From NCBI RefSeq assembly GCF_014252395.1, contig NZ_CP059219.1, positions 512,936 through 576,935 on the forward strand: a stretch of 64,000 nucleotides of DNA. Reading direction: 5' to 3'. The translations under genes and the position numbers were made by a program. This DNA comes from Blattabacterium cuenoti (GTDB lineage: Bacteria; Bacteroidota; Bacteroidia; Flavobacteriales; Blattabacteriaceae). This document shows positions 25,857 through 29,001 of this stretch, one piece after another. The notes under the pieces are model-generated. The model worked only from the letters and a program-made list of their open reading frames with translations, was not told where the DNA came from and ran no database searches. The stretch's first letter is position 1; the number at the start of each line of letters is the position of its first letter.

Positions 25857-26624
25857 GTGAATTTTTTAAAAATTTCTTTCATTGATATTTTAGATATTTT
25901 TTTAGTAACTATTATTTTATTTCAAGTATATAGACTTGTTTATAATACTGCTGCTTTAAATATTTTCTATGGAATTATTGCAACTTTTATTTTCTGGAAA
26001 ATAGTAGAAATTTATAATATGAAACTTCTTAGCATAGTAATAAGTGCTTTTTTTAAAGGAGGTTTTTTAGCTTTAATTATTTTATTTCAACCAGAAATTA
26101 GAAAGTTTTTGCTTATAGTAGGAAGTAGAATTTTTTTAAAAAAGTTTATTTTTTATCTTTTTATAAAATCAAGAATATCAATAAAAACTGAAACTATAGA
26201 AAGTATAGTAAAAGCTTGTGCTATTTTTTCTGGAGATAAAACTGGAGTATTAATAGTAATTCAATTGAATCAAGACTTAAAAGAATTTATTCAAAATGGA
26301 GATGAAATGGATGCTAAAGTTAATATTCCTATTTTAGAAAGTATTTTTTATAAAAATAGTCCATTACATGATGGAGCTGTAGTTATTATAGAAAATAAAA
26401 TAGTTAGAACAAGAGCAATTCTTCCTGTTTCTTATGATACAGAAATTCCATCTCGTTTAGGTCTTCGTCATAGAGCCGCTATTGGTCTATCTGAAAAAAC
26501 AGATGCAATATGCCTTGTTATTTCAGAAGAAACAGGTTATATATCTTATATAAAAGATCAAAAAAGAACTGTTATTACTAATATTAATAATTTAAAAATG
26601 AATTTAGAAAAAGATTTATTATAA
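25857..26624 (+). CDS. cdaA: Diadenylate cyclase CdaA (c-di-AMP synthase)
   Basis: Makes the second messenger cyclic di-AMP from two ATP. The N terminus has about three membrane helices (residues 10-85), then the DAC domain with both catalytic motifs: HDGAVV (DGA at 172-174) and GLRHRAAIG (RHR at 204-206). The GTG at 25857 is chosen because NFLKISFIDILDIFLVTIILFQVYRL matches the usual CdaA start and no ATG precedes it. Length is 255 aa. Its last base overlaps the murF ATG. No c-di-AMP phosphodiesterase is in the window. Confidence 0.92.
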   Translation: MNFLKISFIDILDIFLVTIILFQVYRLVYNTAALNIFYGIIATFIFWKIVEIYNMKLLSIVISAFFKGGFLALIILFQPEIRKFLLIVGSRIFLKKFIFYLFIKSRISIKTETIESIVKACAIFSGDKTGVLIVIQLNQDLKEFIQNGDEMDAKVNIPILESIFYKNSPLHDGAVVIIENKIVRTRAILPVSYDTEIPSRLGLRHRAAIGLSEKTDAICLVISEETGYISYIKDQKRTVITNINNLKMNLEKDLL

Positions 26625-27927
26625 TGAATATAAAATATATTTATAAATTATATTCTATTTCTTCTGGAATAGAAATAAATAGTAAAAAAGTAAAACAAAA
26701 TTCTATATTTATAGCTTTAAAAGGAAAAAATTTTAACGGAAATCAATTTGCTGCTGAAGCAATTGCAAATGGTGCTATGTTAGTTATTTTAGATGATAAA
26801 AAATATGTTTTTTCTACAAAAAAAATTTTTTTTGTAGAAAATAGTTTATTTTTTTTACAAAAATTAGCAATGTATCATAGATATAAATTACATCATATTC
26901 CTATTATTGCTATTACAGGAAGTAATGGAAAAACAACAACTAAAGAACTTTTAAAAAAAATACTATCTAAAAAATATAAAAAAGTTCATTTTACTAATGA
27001 AAATTTTAATAATCATATAGGAATTCCATTAACTATTCTTTCTATGTCCAAAAATACTTCTATTTCTATTATAGAAATTGGAGCAAATCATGAAAATGAA
27101 ATTGAAAAAATGTGTTATATTATTAATCCAGATTATGGATATATAACTAATTTTGGAAAAGCTCATTTAGAAGGATTTCATAATATAAAAGGAGTTATAC
27201 GTAGTAAATTAGAACTATATAATTTTTTAAAAAAAAAAAAAAAACTGTATTTATAAACGGAGATGATCCTATTCAATTATATAATAGTAAAAAAATTAAA
27301 AGATTTATTTTTTCAGAAAAAAAAGATAATAAACCTGATATAATAGTAAAATATTTATGGAAAACAAAAAATATAAAATCAATTTTATATATTAAAAATA
27401 AAAAAATAATTTCTCCTTTAATAGGAAGTTATAATTTATATAATATAGCTTCGTCCATAATTATTGGAATGTATTTTAAAATTCCTTTGAAGGATATTAA
27501 AAAAGCAGTAGAAGAATATGTACCTAATAATTATCGATCTCAAATTTTAATAAAAAATAATAAAAAAATTATTATAGATTGTTATAATGCTAATCCTACT
27601 AGTATGATAAAAGCTCTTATTTTTTTTAATAATATTAAAGGAAATAAAATGGTTATATTAGGAGATATGTTAGAATTAGGTTCTTTTTCTAAAAAAGAAC
27701 ATAAAAAAATAATTTTTTTTTTAGAAAAAAGTTATATTCATATGGTTTTTTTAATTGGATCTATTTTTTTTAATATAGATATGAAAACATCTTGTAAAAT
27801 AAAAAAATTTATAACTAAAAAAAAATTTATTGAATGGATTAAAAAAAATCCAATTAAAAAAATTGATTTAATTCTTATTAAAGGATCTAGAAAAAATGCA
27901 TTAGAAAATTTGATTTACTTTTTGTAG
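26624..27927 (+). CDS. murF: MurF, UDP-MurNAc-tripeptide:D-Ala-D-Ala ligase, split by a poly(A) frameshift
   Basis: Adds D-Ala-D-Ala to the peptidoglycan precursor. The first frame (26624-27256) holds the N domain, the P-loop AITGSNGKTTTKE (about 97-109), NFNNHIGIPLT, EIGANHENE and TNFGKAHLEGF. It then hits a stop just after a 16-A tract (27229-27244). The rest of the protein continues in the +2 frame straight from that tract, as KTVFINGDDP, then LIGSYNLYNIASS and the C-terminal domain with NPTSMIKAL and LGDMLELG, to 27927. Adding one A or removing two restores one ORF of about 435 aa. Everything else looks intact, so I read it as a functional gene rescued by slippage, or a homopolymer-length sequencing error. 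Confidence 0.85.
27229..27244. repeat. 16-base poly(A) tract inside murF
   Basis: Six T followed by sixteen A lie exactly where the murF reading frame shifts. This is the longest uninterrupted A run I noticed in a coding sequence here. Homopolymers of this length are known to cause RNA polymerase slippage in other A+T-rich insect endosymbionts. Confidence 0.95.
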
Positions 27928-27978
27928 ATTTATATTTAAAGGTTAAATTTGTATTTGATAATTCCATTAAATTTTTTC

Positions 27979-29001
27979 ATGAAAAAAATTACCACAGAAA
28001 CCTATATAAAGTGGTTTAAAGATATGTCTTTTTGGAGAAAATTTGAAGATAAATGTCGTTCCTTATATTTAAAACAAAAAATTAGAGGATTTTTACATTT
28101 ATATAATGGACAAGAAGCAGTTCCTGCTGGATTGACTCATGCTATGGATATGTCTAAAGATAAAATGATAACCGCTTATAGATGTCATATTTTACCCATT
28201 TCTATGGGAGTATCTCCAAAAAAGATAATGGCAGAACTTTTAGGAAAAAAAACAGGAACATCTCATGGATTAGGAGGATCTATGCATATTTTTAGTAAAA
28301 AACATCGTTTTTATGGAGGTCATGGAATTGTAGGAGGACAAATACCATTAGGAGCTGGAATAGCTTTTGCTGATAAATATTTTGGTAAAAAAGCTGTAAC
28401 TATTGCTATTATGGGAGATGGGGCCGTTAGACAAGGATCTATGCATGAAACATTTAATATGGCTATGATATGGAAATTACCAGTGGTATTTGTATGTGAA
28501 AATAATAAATATGCTATGGGAACTTCTGTAGAAAGAAGTACTAATATGGAAGATATTTATAAAATAGGAATTTCATATGGAATGCCTTCTTATCCTGTAG
28601 ATGGAATGGATCCAGAAAAAATAGCAAAAATAGCTTATATTGCTATAGATAGAGCTAGAAAAGGATATGGAGCTACTTTTTTAGATATTAAAACGTATAG
28701 ATATAGAGGACATTCTATGTCTGATTCTGAATTATATAGAAGTAAAGAAGAAATACATTTATATAAAAAAAAAGATCCTATTTTAAAATTGAAAAATTTT
28801 ATTTTACAAAAAAAATGGGATACTATAGAAAATTTAATAGAAATAGAAAATGAAGTAAAAAAACAAGTGGAATTATGTGTTGAATTTGCAGAAAAATCAG
28901 ACACTCCATCTTTAGATGATATGTATAATGTTGTTTATAGTGAACCTGATTATCCTTTTTTAGATAGAAAAATTTTTCATAATAAAAAAGAAAAATATTA
29001 A
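27979..29001 (+). CDS. pdhA: Pyruvate dehydrogenase E1 component, alpha subunit
   Basis: Thiamine-diphosphate-dependent decarboxylation of pyruvate, together with a separate beta subunit not in this window. About 340 aa. The TPP motif appears as MGDGAVRQGSMHETFNMA...VCENNKYAMGT (about 145-178) and the phosphorylation-loop region as YRYRGHSMSD (about 235). I chose ATG 27979 (MKKITTETYIKWFKDM); the frame is open from a TTG at 27949. It is 2 bases upstream of pdhC, so the two are co-transcribed. Confidence 0.95.
   Translation: MKKITTETYIKWFKDMSFWRKFEDKCRSLYLKQKIRGFLHLYNGQEAVPAGLTHAMDMSKDKMITAYRCHILPISMGVSPKKIMAELLGKKTGTSHGLGGSMHIFSKKHRFYGGHGIVGGQIPLGAGIAFADKYFGKKAVTIAIMGDGAVRQGSMHETFNMAMIWKLPVVFVCENNKYAMGTSVERSTNMEDIYKIGISYGMPSYPVDGMDPEKIAKIAYIAIDRARKGYGATFLDIKTYRYRGHSMSDSELYRSKEEIHLYKKKDPILKLKNFILQKKWDTIENLIEIENEVKKQVELCVEFAEKSDTPSLDDMYNVVYSEPDYPFLDRKIFHNKKEKY

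Follow-up and report, generated by a model that had tools for sequence, protein, structure and literature searches.

Frameshifts at poly(A) runs in peptidoglycan genes of Blattabacterium: a one-base deficit in murF and a possible role for slippage

The source genome of Blattabacterium cuenoti, from the genus of cockroach fat-body symbionts, is a single contig of 626,430 bp, and the window analyzed here is the 64,000-nucleotide stretch from 512936 to 576935 of it. Within the window, murF lies between a gene putatively labeled disA and pdhA, and is divided into two parts in different frames that meet at a long poly(A) run (Table 1). The comparison set consisted of this genome and 48 further Blattabacterium genomes (49 in all), one per species; the putative disA gene lies beside murF in 44 of the 49.

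Table 1. Features at the murF locus, with murD of the same genome (window positions unless a locus is named)
Feature	Coordinates	Strand	Remarks
disA (putative label, from sequence and place)	25857..26624	+	Upstream neighbor; overlaps the murF start codon
murF 5' part, frame 0	26624..27256	+	210 codons, ending K-L-Y-L-stop; Mur_ligase and first half of Mur_ligase_M
T6A16 tract, site of the -1 frameshift	27223..27244	+	In-frame length A17 or A14; compared with 45 intact relatives
Premature TAA in frame 0 of murF	27254..27256	+	Sequence reading
murF 3' part, -1 (= +2) frame	27245..27927	+	Remaining part of the middle domain plus Mur_ligase_C; no more stops or shifts
pdhA (label from sequence; pyruvate dehydrogenase E1 alpha)	27949..29001	+	Downstream neighbor, intact
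murD of this genome	L137:5343-6728		In frame

The tract comprises six T (27223-27228) followed by sixteen A (27229-27244). Counting the runs and reading the frames confirmed the first-pass annotation, which had described murF as split at a 16-A run, with halves that join at T6A16 and a second half in the +2 frame. The stop was likewise found where it had been placed, four codons past the tract, and the statement that one A more or two fewer would yield a single reading frame held: substituting A17 or A14 computationally gave one open frame from 26624 to 27927, of 434 or 433 codons, and A15 or A18 did not restore the frame. The A16 run is the longest run of the window; the whole genome has 17 A or T runs of at least 14, and only three reach length 16.

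The protein read through the tract scored 347 bits against the TIGR01143 murF model (cut-off 288.6) and covered the whole model; both halves match MurF well, in line with the claim that they are well conserved. The 210-residue truncated protein scored 206.6 bits, below the cut-off. The frame is interrupted within the middle domain, the ATPase (Pfam Mur_ligase_M, 97-281), at a point where the tract encodes a Lys-rich segment flanked by ‘SKLELYNFL’ and ‘VFINGDD’. Truncation would leave the first domain whole and roughly half of the middle domain, so that the proposed loss of the central and C-terminal domains applies in full only to the latter. No second lesion was found in murF; the tract is the sole disruption of a gene that is otherwise intact. 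The dN/dS of the C-terminal part relative to relatives was about 0.25-0.32, i.e., not raised, a value of little power given that no other genome shares the break, which may have arisen very recently. The earlier view that the gene is not dead agrees with the lack of decay seen here.

The first-pass annotation had proposed a check of tract length and disruption in related strains. murF is intact in 45 of the 49 genomes, and in each of the four broken copies a poly(A) run (A16, A13, A11, and A11) lacks one base. One of the other three (G025, A11) is broken at the same site as in this genome, and two (G035, A13; G038, A11) at another shared position, around codon 232. A ten-gene tree makes the four breaks separate events; the A16 state is private to this genome among the 49, and its frameshift is not common to any other lineage. 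Because all four breaks coincide with A-runs of at least 11, the coincidence of break and tract is not a matter of chance. In relatives, the murF site mostly reads TTTTTT, about nine A, one T or C, and then five to nine A, coding for LKKNKK; in this genome the interrupting base is A and the stretch codes for KKKKK. An AAT or AAC to AAA change (Asn to Lys) would have fused the two neighboring A-runs into about A17, and the fused, hypermutable run would then have lost one A to become A16. A17 is also the tract length of the relatives, which makes A16 a loss of one base; that fusion preceded the loss is the order we infer.

A scan of 25 genes in the 49 genomes gave a parallel in murD that is more interesting than the murF case itself. 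In 24 of the 49 genomes, murD lacks one base at the same A-run (A9-A14), near codon 150; broken copies lie in L148, L192, and further dcw loci. In a clade of 15 genomes that includes the symbionts of Nauphoeta, Blaberus, and Panesthia, A9 is nearly fixed, and 13 carry an out-of-frame murD whose run is exactly A9. In the same clade, G044 has A10 and is in frame, and in G046 the A9 run is closely followed by a 2-base deletion that brings the gene back into frame. The latter was considered as a compensatory mutation and dropped, as four other panel breaks occur in the same assembly and the deletion may be an error. Outside the clade, -1 copies have runs of A9 to A14, and mapping the murD state on the tree requires at least seven changes. 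In the out-of-frame pairs tested, dN/dS 3' of the break was 0.14-0.35, and most values for the out-of-frame half lay within 0.12-0.35, resembling both the upstream part and in-frame pairs; the out-of-frame part is thus under purifying selection. Since murD has been out of frame from the root of the A9 clade and is still constrained, we infer that it is expressed beyond its break in these genomes. An interruption test at murD (a run of at least 9 in every out-of-frame copy but absent from many in-frame ones; Fisher p 0.022) lost significance when restricted to phylogenetically independent pairs and was set aside. The scan also returned stop counts in murC and pnp, with full coverage and unchanged frame, which are probably alignment-end effects and were left out of the argument.

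Across the gene panel, genome-level breaks at sense-A runs were -1 in 38 of 40 cases and +1 in two, one of the latter being terC of G008 (L249, A15). At sense-T runs, three breaks were +1 and one was -1. When shared breaks were counted once, roughly 20 were -1 and one or two +1, this count being approximate. A-run breaks in additional regions of three genomes were -1 as well. Between them, G003 and G034 have -1 breaks at A10-A13: the genes affected in G003 (L147, L153, L157) match ruvX, miaA, mevalonate kinase, and aroQ, and those in G034 (L256, L263) match nadE and dephospho-CoA kinase. The present genome has further -1 breaks in murE (A10), murG (A10), and ftsK (A12), at L137 (genome positions 261641 and 265956) and L139 (genome position 326786). 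Breaks per A-run numbered 36 of 609 in peptidoglycan genes versus 2 of 477 in other panel genes, and 13 of 466 versus 2 of 477 when murD was removed (Fisher p 0.004, a guide only because the genomes are non-independent). A possible reason for the excess is low demand for peptidoglycan enzymes in slow-growing symbionts. The pathway itself is not being dropped, because the Mur ligases persist throughout (MurC, MurD, MurE, MurF, and MurG, like MraY and FtsW, were found in 49 of 49 genomes) and the present genome has intact copies of murA, murB, and ddl. ftsI was unrecognized in the dcw loci L168 (G010), L172 (G014), and L187 (G029), and ftsL or ftsQ in some reduced genomes, while ftsZ, ftsW, and all mur ligases remain.

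These observations suggest that murF here is probably a still-selected gene short of one A, from which some full-length MurF is made by slippage; frame-restoring slippage of some kind is very likely. Full-length enzyme would come from a minority of expression events. RNA polymerase would most likely add one A while copying the run, giving A17 transcripts, possibly assisted by a -1 ribosomal slip on AAA-AAA codons. The linker before the ‘VFINGDD’ strand is Lys-rich, so that MurF with one Lys more or fewer should be tolerated. The best backing, which is indirect, comes from murD, because half the genus is -1 there and the out-of-frame part is still selected. If transcription adds one base or the ribosome slips back one, -1 breaks would be repaired and +1 breaks would not; since insertion by RNA polymerase restores exactly the -1 class, the -1 bias fits transcriptional slippage, although it could partly come from deletion-biased replication slippage or from under-called runs. 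For the genus as a whole, we lean toward the view that -1 A-run frameshifts in peptidoglycan genes are tolerated and last for a long time, and that restoration at the level of expression, biased to one added base or a slip back of one, decides which indels survive. The initial proposal that full-length MurF needs slippage is thus partly supported, by an undecayed gene, a break confined to the tract, and similar breaks genus-wide in selected genes; RNA polymerase is the probable agent, and A16 itself may be a miscall or a recent mutation.

Poly(A)-tract frameshifts corrected by transcriptional slippage are described for Buchnera and Blochmannia (Tamas 2008; Wernegreen 2010; as relayed in PMC3017870 and PMC5009743). 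Like those cases, murF has a single indel in a coding A-run of an AT-rich insect endosymbiont and is otherwise intact and probably still selected; as in endosymbiont slippage genes generally, the indel sits in a homopolymer of at least about 9 within the coding sequence, with no other lesion. In those systems, cell-wall genes are also affected in the aphid symbiont, frameshifts conserved between species are reported for some known cases but not all—here the murF break is private and the murD break clade-wide—and tracts of up to 12, exceeded by A16 of murF, are quoted for Blochmannia. The present case differs in belonging to a Bacteroidota symbiont lineage and is known from genome sequence. In Buchnera, 151 of 157 transcription insertions fell in homopolymers, almost all of them A/T runs, versus only about 16 deletions, and no transcript was found with an error restoring a frame (PMC5574713); a review quotes 12-50% corrected transcripts for frameshifted cell-wall genes of the aphid symbiont (PMC5009743). 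Outside endosymbionts, tssM1 of Citrobacter rodentium (A11) similarly has an A-run just before a premature stop, has its frame restored by an extra A, and lacks ribosomal frameshift signals. In that case measurements covered both the RNA, heterogeneous at 10-15 A, and the two proteins, each of which is required (PMC4256274), whereas the evidence for murF is genomic.

The main rival to RNA-polymerase slippage is a ribosomal -1 slip, or ‘sliding’ on A-AAA-AAA, which within slippage we regard as the lesser, though still appreciable, share. As in dnaX-type -1 frameshifting on A-AAA-AAG, the murF run is slippery, in the correct phase (frame 0 reads AAA AAA AAA AAA AAA CTG, a slippery heptamer in phase) and in the -1 direction; most murD breaks, A9 sites included, read ATA AAA AAA AAG, with the dnaX-type heptamer in phase, and ribosomes in E. 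coli systems slide over iterated AAA codons (PMC4363877). Unlike the dnaX type, however, murF has neither a Shine-Dalgarno-like element close upstream of the tract nor a stimulatory hairpin downstream (fold z +1.3 and +1.7), and the A11 run of tssM1, without such signals, works by transcription. Assembly of two half-proteins by downstream restart is very improbable. In the murD A9 clade an ATG lies a few bases past a stop (TAGAAATG), at ‘MSSFQL’, but this ATG is missing in several murD-broken lineages (e.g., G004, G006, and G023), and for murF restart was rejected, as the first in-frame ATG after the break, at 27469, lies past the rest of the middle domain.

It is also conceivable, although unlikely, that the run was miscalled, the true length being A17 and murF intact. 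A run of 16 A is about as long as can be called reliably, and assemblies err at such runs; the Asn-to-Lys fusion predicts A17, and under-calling yields exactly -1; the -1 calls at murE, murG, and ftsK in this genome point the same way, as do 3 of 17 sense-A runs of at least 14 in the panel that are out of frame. However, 8 of 9 intragenic runs of at least 14 in this genome keep the frame, two further A16 runs among them; this argues against wholesale miscalling but does not clear one site. Moreover, the 64-kb window has dozens of runs of at least 9 and the murF break alone when compared with one relative, and murD A9 breaks in many separate assemblies cannot be long-run miscalls. Still less probable is a true null allele, newly dead and at the first step of decay. 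The break is private to this genome, and Aphidini Buchnera without murC, murE, and/or murF still give cell-wall labeling (PMC9116674), so that such loss is survivable elsewhere; against this, the mur ligases are all retained in 49 of 49 genomes, the usual signs of a pseudogene—a second lesion, a raised dN/dS in the C-terminal part—were not seen in murF, and murD tract breaks have lasted across a clade with the gene undecayed.

Systems of this kind are already known; what is added here is a new host lineage, a murD break that spans a clade, and the bias toward -1, and a search of the open-access literature found no paper on murF or murD breaks in Blattabacterium. Automatic annotation would label murF as a pseudogene, and murD likewise in half of the genus, and the symbiont would be judged unable to make a cell wall. 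If expression restores the frame, gene loss in endosymbionts is being overcounted. The -1 bias predicts that in RNA, A residues are inserted at these runs rather than deleted, and the lineages that have the murD break in common form a natural series for measuring how long a gene survives on slippage.
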